Below, piece by piece: positions 20,691-27,825 of a DNA stretch of 35,466 nucleotides (its first letter is position 1; every line of letters starts with the position of its first letter). Under the pieces are notes generated by a model. It searched no databases. It was not told the origin of the DNA and saw only the letters and a program-made list of their open reading frames with translations. The stretch is from assembly GCA_946610715.1 (NCBI GenBank), contig CAMOCO010000005.1:1-35466 (forward strand), written 5' to 3'. This DNA comes from an uncultured Clostridia bacterium (GTDB taxonomy: Bacteria; Bacillota; Clostridia; Lachnospirales; Lachnospiraceae). The position numbers were made by a program, and so were the translations under genes.

Positions 20691-22985
20691 TTATCCGATT
20701 TCATCTATCTCGCGTATTCTCTGCTCCAGACTGGTATATCTTTTCTGTTCATTTACATTATCTATCATCACATTTACCAGATTCAGATTACCGACTATTA
20801 CAACCATCCGCTTGGCTCTTGTAACTGCTGTATATATCAGGTTTCTGTTAAACAGCCTTGAGTTGCCGGTAAGCAGCGGGATAATCACTGCCGGATACTC
20901 ACTTCCCTGAGACTTATGAATCGTAATAGCAAATGAATGTTCGATTTCATCCAGTTCTTTATAGGAATATTCCGCAATTCTTCCATCATCAAATTCCACT
21001 GTTATAATTTCATCGAAATCATTTATTTCGGAAATGATGCCCATATCCCCATTAAATACTCCGACCCCTTCATCTGAAATGAAACCGTTTTCTTTTGTCG
21101 GAACAGTACGCCACTCAAGCTTATAATTATTCTTTATCTGCATAACCTTATCACCTTCCCTAAAGATGACTCCGTTATACTCTTTTTCCCTTTTTCCGCG
21201 TTGCGGGGGATTGATATAGGATTGAAGCTTTTTATTCAGCTCAACCACTCCCAGCGCCTGCTTTCTCATAGGAGTCAGCACCTGTATCTCATTCATATCC
21301 ACCCCAAGATATCCCGGGAGATTCTTCGTAAGCAGTTCTCTCAGCTCCTCAAAAACAGATGCAACGCTATCCCTGGGAATAAAGAAAAAATCATTATTTT
21401 TATTGCTTATCTCAATCCGCTCACCCTTTTTAATCTTGTGGGCGTTGGTAATAATAGCACTTTCCTCGGACTGCCTGAATATCCTGCTCAGAACTGTTAC
21501 GGGGAAGCACCCGCCGGAAATGATATCATGCAGAACATTTCCCGCTCCCACAGAAGGAAGCTGATCCGTATCTCCTACGAGTATAAGCCTGGTTCCCGGA
21601 GTAATGGCCTTAAGCAGTGAATATAACAGATAATTATCTATCATTGATGCTTCATCCACAATTACCGCATCGCATTCCAGAGGATTATCTTCATTCTTCA
21701 TAAACTTTAGGACCTGGCTCTCGCCGCCTTCTTCTCCCGGCGCTCCCATAAATGACAACAGTCTGTGTATTGTCTGAGCTTTATATCCCGTTGATTCGGT
21801 AATTCTTTTTGCGGCTCTTCCTGTTGGTGCAGCAAGAAATGCCACTTCTCCACGAGCCTCAAAAAATTTGATGATTACATTTATTATCGTTGTTTTTCCC
21901 GTTCCGGGACCACCGGTTATAACAGCAACACCGGAAGATACCGCAGATCTTACTGCCTCTCTCTGCTCCTCCTCCAGCCGAATGCCGGTTTCCTCTTCAA
22001 CTTCCGTTATAGTTTCAGTGATATCTCCCTTAACACCCGGAGCCTGATCTCTCAGGTCGATCAGCATTCTTGCGGATGCAGCCTCACTGTAATAGTTCCA
22101 TCTGGAATAGCATACAGTCATATTATCTTTTTCATTCAGCTTTAGGACAATATCACCCTCCATGGACATCTCCAGCAATAGATCATGGAATCTTTCGGAG
22201 AATTCATTATCTACATGGGCTGTCTCGTCAAAATAAAACTCATCCTCTTCGCTTCTTTCCTCCACCAGCCTGTAGCATTTTTCCGTCAGGATGCTCTCGG
22301 GAATATAGATATGCCCTTCTGAACCTGCCTGATTTAACACATATAATACCGCAGAATGAAGTCTGAACTTTGAATCGGAGGGTATGCCCGCTTTCATTGC
22401 GATATCGTCAGCCCTTTTAAAGCCCACTCCGGGAATCTCTTCAGCTATTCTGTAAGGATTCTCCCTGATGATAGTATAGATTTCCTCACCGAATTCTCTG
22501 TAAATCTTCATGGCAAGTTTTACGCTGATACCGAACTTCGTCAAAAATATAATCACCTGCCGGAACTCGGAATTTTCTCTGTATGCCACTGCAATCTGAA
22601 TGGCCTTTTTCCGGGTGATTCCCTTTACCTCTGCCAGTCTCTCGGGTTCTTCCTCTATTATTCTTATCGTATCTTCCTTAAATTGTCTGATGATTCTGGT
22701 AGCAAGAGCCTCCCTGATTCCGCTTATCACACCGGAAGCCAGAAATCTCTTGATACCTTCCATATCTTCAGGCATGGAAAGCTCATACTCTTTTACATTA
22801 AATTGAATATCAAATTTGGGATGATGTTCATACTCACCCTCAGCACTGATATACATTCCTTCGGCTACTCCGGGCAGTATTCCCACAAATACTTCGTCCC
22901 CCTCCGTAGTCTCAACGCTCATGACGGAGTAGGCATTATCATCATTTTGAAAGATTATTTTATTTATATATCCTTCTCTTACCAT
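20691..22985 (-). CDS. recD2: ATP-dependent DNA helicase RecD2
   Basis: GITRKKAIQIA HhH region, VITGGPGTGKTTIINVII Walker A, VDEASMID Walker B, LVGDTDQLPSVGAGNVL, FAITIHKSQGSEYPAV, NLIYTAVTRAK; 764 aa. Confidence 0.95.
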   Translation of the reverse strand: MVREGYINKIIFQNDDNAYSVMSVETTEGDEVFVGILPGVAEGMYISAEGEYEHHPKFDIQFNVKEYELSMPEDMEGIKRFLASGVISGIREALATRIIRQFKEDTIRIIEEEPERLAEVKGITRKKAIQIAVAYRENSEFRQVIIFLTKFGISVKLAMKIYREFGEEIYTIIRENPYRIAEEIPGVGFKRADDIAMKAGIPSDSKFRLHSAVLYVLNQAGSEGHIYIPESILTEKCYRLVEERSEEDEFYFDETAHVDNEFSERFHDLLLEMSMEGDIVLKLNEKDNMTVCYSRWNYYSEAASARMLIDLRDQAPGVKGDITETITEVEEETGIRLEEEQREAVRSAVSSGVAVITGGPGTGKTTIINVIIKFFEARGEVAFLAAPTGRAAKRITESTGYKAQTIHRLLSFMGAPGEEGGESQVLKFMKNEDNPLECDAVIVDEASMIDNYLLYSLLKAITPGTRLILVGDTDQLPSVGAGNVLHDIISGGCFPVTVLSRIFRQSEESAIITNAHKIKKGERIEISNKNNDFFFIPRDSVASVFEELRELLTKNLPGYLGVDMNEIQVLTPMRKQALGVVELNKKLQSYINPPQRGKREKEYNGVIFREGDKVMQIKNNYKLEWRTVPTKENGFISDEGVGVFNGDMGIISEINDFDEIITVEFDDGRIAEYSYKELDEIEHSFAITIHKSQGSEYPAVIIPLLTGNSRLFNRNLIYTAVTRAKRMVVIVGNLNLVNVMIDNVNEQKRYTSLEQRIREIDEIG

Positions 22986-23114: not shown

Positions 23115-24110
23115 TTATCCTTTTTCAGTTTCCTGTAAAAAGTCGATATATTTTCCGGCACCGATGGCCACAACCTGCATCGGATTTTCAGCAGTCATGG
23201 CAACGATTCCGGTCTTTTCCTCAAGCAATTGCTCAAATCCGTGGAGAAGGGATCCTCCACCCGTAAGAATGATTCCTCTGTCTGCAATATCTGCCGCCAG
23301 TTCAGGTGGGGTCTTTTCCAATACAGCCCTGATCTCCTCCACCACCTTTGCAACAGTCTCACGCAGCGCTTCTTCTGTCTCATCAGAGGTTATGGTTATT
23401 GTCTTGGGAAGTCCCGTGACAAGATCTCTTCCCCTTATATCCATTGAAATATTTTCAGGTCTTTTATAACACGTACCGATATTACGCTTAATCTCCTCAG
23501 CTGTAACATCTCCTATAAGAATATTATACTGTTTTCTAATATATCTTATGATCGCATCGTCAAAATCATCTCCCGCCACCTTGGAAGAAGCGGTAACCAC
23601 AGCACCTCCCATTGAAATGACAGCTATATCCGTGGTACCTCCACCGATATCCACAACAAGATTTCCGATTGGCCGTACTATATCAAGCCCTGCTCCGAGA
23701 GCTGCTGCCACCGGCTCCTCAACCAGAAAAACAAATCTTGCGCCTGCATTATATGCCGCATCTTCAACTGCTCTTCTTTCTACTTCTGTTGCACCTGAAG
23801 GAACACATATGGCAATTCTCGGTCGTCTTCCGAAGAAGCTCCTTCCGACTGCCTTTCTGATAAAATATTTTAGCATTTTCTCAGTCTTTGTAGCTTCTGA
23901 TATAACGCCATGTTTAAGTGGACGGATAGCGGTAAGATTGTCCGGCGTTCTGCCCAGCATTGCTTTTGCTTCATCGCCTATTTCTACGATTCTCTCCGAA
24001 TCCTTGTCATAAGCAATAACCGAGGGCTCACTCAGAACAACGCCGCGCCCTTTAACATATATAAGAATATTGGCACTTCCAAGATCAATACCTATATCAA
24101 GATTTGCCAT
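23115..24110 (-). CDS. MreB/Mbl family bacterial actin, rod-shape determining protein
   Basis: DIGIDLGSANILIYVKGRGVVLSEPSVIA, PLKHGVISE, CVPSGATEVERRAVEDAA, VVDIGGGTTDIAVIS, GIILTGGGSLLHG. Confidence 0.94.
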   Translation of the reverse strand: MANLDIGIDLGSANILIYVKGRGVVLSEPSVIAYDKDSERIVEIGDEAKAMLGRTPDNLTAIRPLKHGVISEATKTEKMLKYFIRKAVGRSFFGRRPRIAICVPSGATEVERRAVEDAAYNAGARFVFLVEEPVAAALGAGLDIVRPIGNLVVDIGGGTTDIAVISMGGAVVTASSKVAGDDFDDAIIRYIRKQYNILIGDVTAEEIKRNIGTCYKRPENISMDIRGRDLVTGLPKTITITSDETEEALRETVAKVVEEIRAVLEKTPPELAADIADRGIILTGGGSLLHGFEQLLEEKTGIVAMTAENPMQVVAIGAGKYIDFLQETEKG

Positions 24111-24113
24111 TTT

Positions 24114-25892
24114 TTACTCCTTTATCTGATCACTGGAAGGCACAAGCAGGATAACCGATGCATCTTCGCCATTCTTCCAGGTAATATTTATATCCGTAAC
24201 ATCAAAAATACCGCCGAGCTGATTTATATATCTTGTAAAGGTCATGGTTTTTCCTCTGTCCACCATCAGCTCGAGTTCACCGGAAAACGCAGGAACTTCA
24301 GCATTGAGCTTTGGAATCATTCTGAAGCTGTCCTGTCCTATAGGATTCATTTTTATATCCTTTATAAATCTGTCGTTAGCATACAGTACTGCTCCGGTTT
24401 CATTATTTCTGATAAATATATCCATATCCAGATTATCAAGTACCATAATAAGTTTTTTCTCGGAGTCCGTGTCTTCACTTCCGCTCACATTTATAAAACT
24501 TTTTGAGATTATCTTGCTCATCTCTCTGCCAAAGCTTATTTCCGATTCATTCCATGCTCTTTCACGTGTATTTTCAATAAAAATTAATCTGCCATAGTAC
24601 TTTCCTTTTTTTCTTATAGGAAATACCATGACTGCCCGGGCATTACCCTCAAATATTTCAACCCTCATCCGGTTGGTCATATTCTTTCTGTCTATAACAA
24701 GTCCCTCATCACGGATTTGCTTCTGGAAATCCGGATCATAATGATCATATTTCCATTCAAAAACACTTTCCTCAGTCTCGCTCTTTCCCTTTTTGGCCCA
24801 ATAATCCATAAGGTCCATTTTTTCCGGATTATCCTTATTTACCACATAATAGACCACATAGTCAATATCCAGGATTTTTCCCGCCTTTTCAAAGTACTTA
24901 TAAAAGTCCGTTGAACCTTTTTCAACTTCGGAAATCAGTTTGCTTATAAGCTTTTTTTCTTTTATTTCAAATTCAAGAGCAGCCCTCTTGTTTTCGTCCT
25001 TAATAGAAACTGCATTTCTGTTATACAGTCTGGTAAGGTGATCGGAAATCACTGAAGCAATATTCCATTGGTAATTATACACTTTAAAAAGCTTCTTCGC
25101 CTGATTGGAGTTATGCGCATAGAGAAGCCACATAGCACAGCATATCCCGTTAATAAATACAGGAGCTGCAGCAATTCTTCTCTCTCCTGCAGATTCCTCT
25201 GTTTTATAATCTTCAAATTCCATAAACAGAGGACCTGTATCCTGTATAAGTGAATTCTTTATTTTTTTGAAAAAATCGGCATATTGCGGATTCTCCAGAT
25301 AGTCATAGAATTCACCGAAATAGCTGGTGGGACCCGTAGGTTCGGTAAGAGGTGCTCCGTTCATATCCAGTACTACGGAATATAATTCACTGGCATTTGC
25401 AAAGCTGCTGAAGTAATCACAAACTTTATTATCCATGACAAATTCTTTTGTCAGCTTTACATCAGTTTTTTCCTCTTTCTCTTCGGAATCGTCATCTGCA
25501 TCAAACCTTACGCTTCTGGTTATCTCATGACATACAAACTCTACGTGATAATCATTCTCACTCATTCCAATAAACATGATATCCATATTTATTGTCCGGA
25601 GCTTACCGTCATCACCTATCAGCCTCACTTCATAAGAGAAATCCGTTCCTGTCCTGAAAGCCCGCAGCATTGCATCTGCAAACGCTTCTCTGTCATCCGG
25701 ATGAATATAATCCTCCGGAAGTCTGTAACCCTTATTGATGGTTTTGTAGTTTAATCCGAGAATCCCCACATTATCAGACAGATATTCTATCTTACTGCGT
25801 CTGACTCTTTCTATGCTATCAAACTGCCTTACCATAACTACACAGCCGGTTTTTTCAATTGCAAGATATAAATAATCCCTCTCCGAACTCAT
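24114..25892 (-). CDS. multi-domain sensory protein (PAS-like N-terminus, central GAF-like region, C-terminal PAS-like domain), no recognisable output domain
   Basis: N-terminal ...GYRLPEDYIHPDDREAFADAMLRAFRTGTDFSYEVRLIGDDGKLRTINMDI is PAS_3-like; middle AVMVFPIRKKGKYYGRLIFIENTRERAWNESEISFGREMSKII is GAF-like; C-terminal LDNLDMDIFIRNNETGAVLYANDRFIKDI is PAS-like. Confidence 0.8.
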   Translation of the reverse strand: MSSERDYLYLAIEKTGCVVMVRQFDSIERVRRSKIEYLSDNVGILGLNYKTINKGYRLPEDYIHPDDREAFADAMLRAFRTGTDFSYEVRLIGDDGKLRTINMDIMFIGMSENDYHVEFVCHEITRSVRFDADDDSEEKEEKTDVKLTKEFVMDNKVCDYFSSFANASELYSVVLDMNGAPLTEPTGPTSYFGEFYDYLENPQYADFFKKIKNSLIQDTGPLFMEFEDYKTEESAGERRIAAAPVFINGICCAMWLLYAHNSNQAKKLFKVYNYQWNIASVISDHLTRLYNRNAVSIKDENKRAALEFEIKEKKLISKLISEVEKGSTDFYKYFEKAGKILDIDYVVYYVVNKDNPEKMDLMDYWAKKGKSETEESVFEWKYDHYDPDFQKQIRDEGLVIDRKNMTNRMRVEIFEGNARAVMVFPIRKKGKYYGRLIFIENTRERAWNESEISFGREMSKIISKSFINVSGSEDTDSEKKLIMVLDNLDMDIFIRNNETGAVLYANDRFIKDIKMNPIGQDSFRMIPKLNAEVPAFSGELELMVDRGKTMTFTRYINQLGGIFDVTDINITWKNGEDASVILLVPSSDQIKE

Positions 25893-25965: not shown

Positions 25966-26925
25966 CTAAGCCTGGGAACCGCTTAAATCAGAGAATGCAC
26001 TTTCTGAAATCTTAATTGTATTTTCTACTGATTCATTTACGTTAACAAGTGAGTCCTTAAGGTTGCCCAGATATTCACTGATAGAATCAAATTCTTTCTT
26101 AACCGCAGCTCTGTTCTGACGGATTTCTTCTCTGGTAGCAGCCTTCTTAATCTCACATTCCGCTGTAGTCTCATCTCTCAGCTTTGTACACTCTGCTTCT
26201 GTCTCTTCCTTAAGTCTTGTACAATCTTCCTGAGTCTTTGACATCAGATTACTGCAATACTGCTCGGTCTCCTGATTCTTTCTTGCACAAGTCTCATCAG
26301 TCTCCAGATTCAGTCTTTCACATCTTTCCTTTGTCTCTAAACTGAGCTGGTCTGTTTCTTCCTTGGTAACTCTTCTGAGATTGCTGCATTCATTCTCTGT
26401 AGTCTCACGCTGTTCACGACATGACTCATTGGTTTCTTCTATAAGTCTGTTGCATTCTGCCTCAGTAGTATTCCTTAAATTCTCACACTGGGCATTTGTC
26501 TCCTCTATCATCTGCTGACACTGAGCCGTAGATTCAGCTGTCAGTGTCTCGCATTCTTCCCTTGTCTTCCTTGTAAGTTCATCTGCCGACTCTCTTGCAG
26601 CAAGTAATGTTCTTGAAATAGATTCATATCTGGTTGCAGATTCAGAATCTCTCTTCTTATATTCTTCCAGTTCAACCTTCATTTTGGATAATTCGGTTTC
26701 AAGATTCTCATTTACACTTCTGAGATTATCAATGACACTGTCAGACTCGGTCTTATTAACTTCTCTCATTTGCTGAAGTCCCTTAACAGCCTCGCTTAAT
26801 TTTGCTGTGTCTTCCTTCAATCTGGATATCTGCTTCTCATAGTCCTCTCTCTGACCTTCAACATAAGCTTCAACCGCTTTTTTATCATATCCTCCAAATG
26901 ACACTGTCTTGATATCTAAATCCAT
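25966..26925 (-). CDS. DivIVA-like coiled-coil protein with Cys/Thr hendecad repeats
   Basis: N-terminus MDLDIKTVSFGGYDKKAVEAYVEGQREDYEKQISRLKED resembles the DivIVA/GpsB N-terminal motif (F-x-GYD-x-x-x-V); remainder strongly coiled-coil. Confidence 0.82.
   Translation of the reverse strand: MDLDIKTVSFGGYDKKAVEAYVEGQREDYEKQISRLKEDTAKLSEAVKGLQQMREVNKTESDSVIDNLRSVNENLETELSKMKVELEEYKKRDSESATRYESISRTLLAARESADELTRKTREECETLTAESTAQCQQMIEETNAQCENLRNTTEAECNRLIEETNESCREQRETTENECSNLRRVTKEETDQLSLETKERCERLNLETDETCARKNQETEQYCSNLMSKTQEDCTRLKEETEAECTKLRDETTAECEIKKAATREEIRQNRAAVKKEFDSISEYLGNLKDSLVNVNESVENTIKISESAFSDLSGSQA
26110..26571 (-). repeat. 14 consecutive 11-residue (33-nt) protein repeats, consensus xxTxxxCxxLx
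   Basis: Residues 119-272: RKTREECETLT AESTAQCQQMI EETNAQCENLR NTTEAECNRLI EETNESCREQR ETTENECSNLR RVTKEETDQLS LETKERCERLN LETDETCARKN QETEQYCSNLM SKTQEDCTRLK EETEAECTKLR DETTAECEIKK AATREEIRQNR. Confidence 0.95.
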
Positions 26926-27108: not shown

Positions 27109-27825
27109 ATGATATATAAAAAAACAAGAAATAGTATATTGGTCATTCTTTCTCTGATATTACTTCTATGTACAGCGGCCTGTACGGACCAGCGGGAGAC
27201 ACGTTATCAGACCTACGTTGACAGTCTTATAACCGCAAATTATCTAAATGCCTGCGAAGAATATATCCGTGCCACCGGAGCAAATCAGGATGATGCAGAG
27301 GCCATGTATCTTCAAAATGTCACGAGACTTGCCGAGAATCTTGAATCGTATTACGGACTTGAGATTTCATCAGATGTAGAGCTGGCTCCCAGGATGGTGG
27401 AAATATCCAAAAAGATTTACGGAAAAGCACGTTTTAATACCAAGGAAGCATTTAAGGATAATAATATCTATTATGTAGATATTGAGATATATCCCATCGA
27501 CATTCTGAATCAGACACATGATGAGGTTCTTGAATATATTGAGGATTTCAACAGCCGTGTTGAAAAAGGCGAATTTAATAACTACGTTAAGGAAGATTAC
27601 GAACATGAATTCGCATCAGGTATTATAGATATATTGGATGAAGCTTCAGATTCCATGGAATATGCCGATCCCGAAACCGTAAGAGTAAGGATCATTCAAA
27701 GCGATTCAAATTTTTATATCAGCAATGACGATTTCAGAAAAATAGATATGGCAATCCTGTCTACTGACGCTTCCAAATATGAGGAAGCATCTTCTACCGA
27801 TGCTTCGCTCACAGACGCCGAATAA
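27109..27825 (+). CDS. putative lipoprotein of unknown function
   Basis: Signal peptide with lipobox LLLCTAAC followed by TDQRETRYQTYVDSLITANYLNACEEYIRAT...; 238 aa. Confidence 0.85.
   Translation: MIYKKTRNSILVILSLILLLCTAACTDQRETRYQTYVDSLITANYLNACEEYIRATGANQDDAEAMYLQNVTRLAENLESYYGLEISSDVELAPRMVEISKKIYGKARFNTKEAFKDNNIYYVDIEIYPIDILNQTHDEVLEYIEDFNSRVEKGEFNNYVKEDYEHEFASGIIDILDEASDSMEYADPETVRVRIIQSDSNFYISNDDFRKIDMAILSTDASKYEEASSTDASLTDAE

Follow-up and report, generated by a model that had tools for sequence, protein, structure and literature searches.

Proteins of the DivIVA/GpsB family (Pfam PF05103) have a head with a GYD..V motif followed by a coiled coil, and the DivIVA-like motif at the coiled-coil start has been described as [R/E/G]GYDxxEVD (PMC9858780). 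Such heads are already known on hendecad rods, as in Streptomyces FilP and Scy, where a DivIVA-like head carries a long hendecad rod with an Ala-rich core that arose by lineage-specific expansion (PMC9858780). In each hendecad, a single core residue faces the coiled-coil axis directly and, in dimers, has to have a small side chain (PMC9858780). Coiled coils built largely from 11-residue repeats also characterize families in the 2023 hendecad survey of Martinez-Goikoetxea and Lupas, as it is cited in PMC11676326. By title or abstract, the literature that we covered on hendecads, DivIVA, and Lachnospiraceae reports no Cys ladder, a coverage outside which the 2023 survey lies.

Here, we investigated a DivIVA-like coiled-coil protein of 319 amino acids (25966..26925, minus strand) encoded in the window, which is the whole 35,466-nucleotide stretch of DNA analyzed from an uncultured member of the Lachnospiraceae. 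The protein was delineated from its open reading frame, its Pfam DivIVA match, and an AlphaFold2 (AF2) model, and all of its parts lie on the minus strand. Residues 1–60 (26746..26925) form a DivIVA-like head with the motif GGYDKKAVE and the start of the coiled coil, as marked by residues that are invariant among 37 orthologues, namely K6, S9, F10, G11, G12, Y13, and D14. Residues 61–118 (26572..26745) form the coiled coil preceding the ladder, with a conserved YESISRTLLAARESADEL in the orthologue alignment, and fall within the DivIVA Pfam stretch, which spans residues 58–155. The ladder itself occupies residues 119–272 (26110..26571), where 14 gapless hendecads place Thr at position 3, Cys at position 7, and Leu or Met at position 10. 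Behind the ladder, residues 273–319 and the stop codon (25966..26109) encode a tail that is helical in the AF2 model and kept in the orthologue alignment.

The original prediction, made from the DNA letters, described 14 uninterrupted hendecads with a Thr, Cys, and Leu/Met pattern at positions 3, 7, and 10, and every number in it that we checked was correct. Residues 119–272 are exactly 14 × 11 residues with zero insertions. Position 3 is Thr in 13 of the 14 units and Ser in the other, position 10 is Leu or Met in 10 of 14, and position 7 is Cys in 12 of 14, with Thr (Thr 191) in unit 185–195 and Ile in the last unit, 262–272. All 12 cysteines of the protein share one 11-residue register with a single rung skipped at Thr 191, giving spacings of 11, 11, 11, 11, 11, 22, 11, 11, 11, 11, and 11. 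By simple arithmetic, the chance that 12 of 12 cysteines fall in the same class modulo 11 is about (1/11)^11, or ~3e-12, and Cys makes up 1.3% of residues in the 15 other open reading frames of the window. The self-identity of the protein is 0.31, 0.28, and 0.24 at lags of 11, 22, and 33 residues and about 0.04–0.12 at other lags. At the DNA level, the 33-mer units have a mean identity of only 47%, so the array is old and not a recent minisatellite.

The protein scores 31.3 bits against PF05103, above the cut-off of 28, which supports the DivIVA-like label it had first been given, and several of its orthologues fall below this cut-off in a six-frame search. GGYDKKAVE matches the published motif incompletely, with A and E replacing the E and D of EVD, and G precedes GYD in place of the R common in DivIVA. 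Like DivIVA and GpsB, the protein continues from this head into a coiled coil; unlike them, it has a longer hendecad rod and a Thr-Cys-Leu core. It shares its overall architecture with FilP and Scy, but those belong to an actinobacterial group and their cores favor Ala over Thr/Cys, and the ladder protein reaches 19.7 bits against the NCBIfam Scy family (NF041483), whose cut-off is 1040. In the window genome, which is 74% complete, the ladder gene is present in a single copy and is the sole Pfam DivIVA match found.

Elsewhere in the genus, canonical DivIVA has a gene of its own that neighbors yggS- and sepF-like genes (locus L051), and a third, GpsB-like paralogue is likewise encoded separately. 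The canonical copies that we read contain A-x3-A-x2-I hendecads and zero Cys; the hendecads behind the head of the ladder protein resemble them in pattern. Unlike canonical DivIVA, the window gene lies beside mreB and not sepF or yggS. Since it is a separate gene, in an mreB locus as opposed to a yggS/sepF locus, the ladder protein is a paralogue of canonical DivIVA.

Downstream of the ladder gene lie a PAS-containing sensor-like protein of 592 amino acids (24114..25892, minus strand), mreB (23115..24110, minus strand; Pfam MreB_Mbl, E = 4.7e-137), and the recD2 helicase gene (20691..22985, minus strand; TIGR01448, 841.8 bits). The PAS protein has a PAS_3 domain at residues 44–104, a sub-threshold PAS_9 match at 492–576, and a GAF-like middle recognized by inspection only; Pfam and NCBIfam searches found no output domain. 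On the other side is a lipoprotein-like gene of 238 amino acids (27109..27825, plus strand) that matches no Pfam or NCBIfam family above cut-off. The order lipoprotein-like gene, DivIVA-like gene, PAS protein gene, mreB, and recD2 is conserved in all six loci of the genus that we examined over this span, and the same neighbors flank the ladder gene in three other genomes (G843, G787, and G064). In G896 and G822, which are outgroups, the DivIVA-like gene is flanked by the PAS gene and by mreB. The lipoprotein-like gene is divergent from the DivIVA-like gene in the window and co-directional with it in two other loci (L035 and L036). The PAS protein lies between the ladder gene and mreB in related loci and is a possible signaling partner. 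The ladder protein is thus tied to mreB by position, and a functional link with MreB may follow from this placement.

Next, we searched 61 genomes for the ladder protein. It was recovered from 36 of the 37 that belong to the genus of the window DNA, and the 24 that represent other families of the order gave no match. Those carriers that have names are rumen Eubacterium and Lachnospiraceae, E. ruminantium ATCC 17233 among them. Profile searches of the order and family additionally recovered long ladders at the mreB locus type in four further genera (represented by G064, G758, G787, and G843) and partial ladders in more distant relatives. The ladder is kept in all 37 orthologues collected, which have 7–12 ladder cysteines at spacings that are almost all multiples of 11, and differences in rod length are mostly whole hendecads. 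Outside the ladder, Cys is absent from the window protein and sparse in the orthologues (26/380).

In the alignment of the 37 orthologues, the ten majority-Cys columns have a mean identity of 93%, the highest of any residue type. Ser appears in these columns once and Val never, and Ala is rare at most rungs. Across the ladder units, Cys is replaced by Thr, Ala, Leu, Met, Val, or Ile and never by a charged residue. When the Cys codons were mapped onto one tree by unweighted parsimony, we counted at least 95 synonymous TGC/TGT changes versus 12 amino-acid changes. Judged from the sequences, selection has kept the ladder cysteines and drift is ruled out within the ladder clade, because of this excess of synonymous over replacement changes and the identity of the Cys columns. 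Homologues of the same architecture lacking conserved Cys had been named in advance as a sign of drift; none are seen within the ladder clade, where Cys is the most conserved residue, and further out they do occur, with Ser at those positions.

One such homologue suggests where the rungs came from. At the same locus, genome G896 (L234/L242) encodes a recognizable orthologue that shares the head FKTVSFGGYDK and has a Pfam DivIVA score of 44.4 bits, and it reads A-x3-S-x2-M/L in the columns aligned to the Thr-x3-Cys-x2-Leu of the window protein. G822 is mixed, and the ladder of G1031 is partial. In a tree built from the sequence outside the ladder and rooted by hand, G896 and G822 are separated from a group of 18 ladder-clade proteins and G1031 (support 0.88), and the long-ladder proteins fall together (support 1.0). 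Most simply, Thr and Cys would have replaced Ala and Ser together, a direction that the tree alone does not fix.

The rod is helical, with 11-residue periodicity and a 3-4-4 core spacing, as defines a hendecad coiled coil. Helical-wheel angles at 11 residues per three turns put Thr at 0, Cys at +33, and Leu at −33 degrees, all on one narrow face. The hendecad core pattern of the original prediction is borne out in this respect and refined in another: Thr is at the center, and under the a/d/h scheme of PMC9858780 Cys takes position a, Leu position d, and Thr position h. The wheel angles make Thr the residue that faces the axis directly. The flanks of the core face differ, as position 6 on the Leu side is acidic (49% D/E) and position 11 on the Cys side is basic (59% K/R). 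This asymmetry suits a parallel helix-helix contact, as far as residue composition can indicate; attractive pairs between positions 6 and 11 within units number 113 versus 116 expected from composition and are not enriched.

The AF2 model of the ladder protein is almost all helical, with a mean pLDDT of 85 and helices at residues 15–204 and 210–315; as a single-chain run, it carries no information on the helix interface. The helix break at 205–209, near an alignment indel, is probably an artifact, because spurious bends in long coiled coils are a known trait of AlphaFold models (PMC11676326). A PDB search with the single ladder sequence gave no match. With the orthologue profile, the closest PDB sequence is 6h9l, called an uncharacterized protein by its depositors, in which the repeat ATKEDIEALRK gives T-x3-I-x2-L at 11-residue spacing, with Ile where the ladder protein has Cys; this match is between low-complexity coiled coils and is no evidence of homology.

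We then asked how the core residues vary together. For this we used 18 stretches, belonging to outgroups or to other families, which were hand-picked from matches to a Thr-Cys profile and are not a random sample. Thr at h accompanies Cys at a 58 times and Ala or Ser 0 times; Ala at h accompanies Ala or Ser at a 23 times and Cys 7 times (Fisher p 2e-15, with units uncorrected for relatedness). The score that set the phase of each stretch gives credit for Cys, Thr, and Ala but none for their pairing, and it may inflate register quality. In a within-protein permutation, 0 of 20,000 trials reached the observed coupling count. Val or Ile at h is also paired mostly with Cys at a (14 of 19 units). 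The coupling runs in the same direction inside the 37 orthologues, with an odds ratio of 7.4, again uncorrected for relatedness. Side-chain packing would lead to such a rule between two neighboring core positions.

Searching other genomes for the repeat, as had been proposed, turned up Thr-Cys hendecads in further Lachnospiraceae proteins and in one phage tail-like protein. A second DivIVA-like type, with the head FKTTLMGGFDK and 8 Cys, is found in G833 (L327, 4506–5549). Its homologues in L047, L260, and L261 have one Cys or none, which suggests that the ladder of this type was a separate gain. One Lachnospiraceae coiled-coil family, marked by a head of the LKKLSR type and the motif GNIAEA..GIFE.AQ.AA, has Thr/Val-Cys ladders of 4–13 Cys. 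It is found in genomes G1064, G776, G942, G932, G828, G885, and G935 (loci L331, 5040–5981; L329, 4440–5144; L322, L323, L324, L325, and L328), and the members tested match no Pfam or NCBIfam family above cut-off. The longest ladder seen has 19 Cys rungs, in a 556-amino-acid coiled-coil protein that is a version of the LKKLSR type (G844; L330, 4802–6472). FliH has an N-terminal part with two Cys hendecads (VREECEQLKADTRAEC) in L256 (1201–2094) and L252. A membrane-protein-like open reading frame (L249, 553–2229) has a long T-x3-M-x2-L hendecad array, with Met at the Cys position. The phage tail-like protein, on a viral contig (L133, 3645–6551, minus strand), has five T-x3-C hendecads ahead of an HAEG-repeat region and matches no Pfam family.

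A DNA pattern for three Thr-Cys units gave matches that we judged genuine, by eye from composition and strand, in 12 of the 260 family genomes and in 2 of 255 in a class sample, both of this family. Matches outside the family in the phylum- and class-wide searches were, by eye, DNA repeats in another frame or chance. Viral contigs with the pattern showed, for the most part, DNA repeats read in a different frame or short open reading frames, and L133 is the only convincing coiled coil among the viral loci listed. A tblastn search of a phage collection with the ladder gave no match. Heads differ among the types of Thr-Cys ladder protein. Some of the ladder rods may nonetheless share common descent, because coiled coils of low complexity draw one another into profile searches.

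On balance, we lean toward a reading in which Cys lies buried in the core of a Thr-Cys-Leu hendecad rod, within an mreB-linked DivIVA-like scaffold, and has a packing and not a chemical role. By analogy with the DivIVA family, the head would dimerize through its GGYD motif and would probably anchor at a membrane or curved site. The rod would be lengthened by repeated hendecad units, with a core of Thr at the center (h), Cys (a), and Leu (d) that was probably derived from an Ala-Ser-Leu/Met hendecad like that of the extant G896 orthologue. In the helix-helix interface, Cys would be a small, buried, weakly polar residue packing on a beta-branched neighbor at the core center, and an anaerobic, reducing cytoplasm would leave it little oxidation cost. 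The ladder and its conservation, the Ser counterpart in an orthologue, the Thr-Cys coupling, and the presence of such ladders in other proteins are observed; we infer burial in an oligomer interface, parallel assembly, the scaffold role, and packing rather than thiol chemistry. Packing is favored because the same Thr-Cys hendecad is found behind a range of heads, and in a phage tail-like protein, and because Cys is coupled to the neighboring core residue. We also favor the view that such a core is tolerated or preferred in anaerobes. A point against packing is that a pure size rule predicts more Ser, Ala, and Val replacing Cys than observed. The strict retention of a reactive residue in these alignments fits a thiol-specific role as well. 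The functions first suggested for the cysteines, a metal- or redox-responsive zipper or a covalently cross-linked filament, gained no support from the sequences.

Such a role would be that of a thiol-dependent scaffold, which we regard as unlikely. Here, stacked Cys rungs would be joined by reversible disulfides between helices, or would react with electrophiles, on oxygen entry, a filament would be locked or released near the MreB machinery, and the adjacent PAS protein could share in the response. The extreme retention of Cys against many synonymous changes is in its favor, as are the near-confinement of Cys to the ladder, the conserved PAS-containing neighbor, and the placement of rungs every 11 residues on the interface face. 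In an idealized straight dimer, a rough calculation gives Cys Cβ–Cβ distances of about 5.4–6.7 Å, which is above the 3.5–4.5 Å or so of a relaxed disulfide yet reachable by a small movement. However, rung number varies from 7 to 12 among orthologues, single rungs are lost in some, and one orthologue has Ser instead. Furthermore, the same ladder is carried on other heads, including that of the phage tail-like protein, and Pfam and NCBIfam searches of the conserved neighbors in related loci found no thiol enzyme. It is also doubtful that the recurrent Lachnospiraceae Thr-Cys hendecad is a thiol-based switch or anchor used in several scaffolds with different heads, one of them tied to MreB, whose rungs would alter assembly with oxygen, electrophiles, or metal.

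We find a metal-binding rod very unlikely. Designed coiled coils with Cys in a core layer bind thiophilic metals, and the ladder supplies repeated Cys layers that, in a trimer or tetramer, could bind Zn, Cu(I), Fe, or heavy metals in a metal-controlled or metal-storing filament. Against this, each layer has one Cys per chain, the core face has no His or acidic ligand, and single rungs are replaced by the non-charged residues listed above. The same searches of the conserved neighbors revealed no metal transporter or metal regulator.

There is similarly little to be said for an amphipathic lipid-binding helix, whose 11-mers would bind membrane or lipid in the manner of apolipoproteins and not another helix. 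The window protein, the orthologue profile, and other ladder proteins do give weak apolipoprotein matches, but their scores are far below cut-off. The acidic and basic flanks suit parallel helix contacts, although pairs are not enriched within units, and the presence of a DivIVA-like head points to a coiled-coil dimer. Finally, that Cys was merely copied along during hendecad amplification and has no importance is scarcely credible, since unit number does vary by whole hendecads but Cys has been retained through many independent synonymous changes (12 vs 95), the repeats are old (47% DNA identity), and the ladder occurs in other proteins.

Kept by selection and recurring in several other proteins of the family, the Thr-Cys rod looks like a real but unrecognized way to build a coiled-coil core. 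It suggests a two-residue rule for hendecad cores, in which a beta-branched center goes with Cys and Ala goes with Ala or Ser, that recurs in one anaerobic family and is open to test with short peptides. The analysis also names a conserved, uncharacterized DivIVA-like neighbor of mreB. Additionally, it raises the question of why anaerobes build long rods with Cys every third helical turn, whether for packing or as a built-in thiol response.
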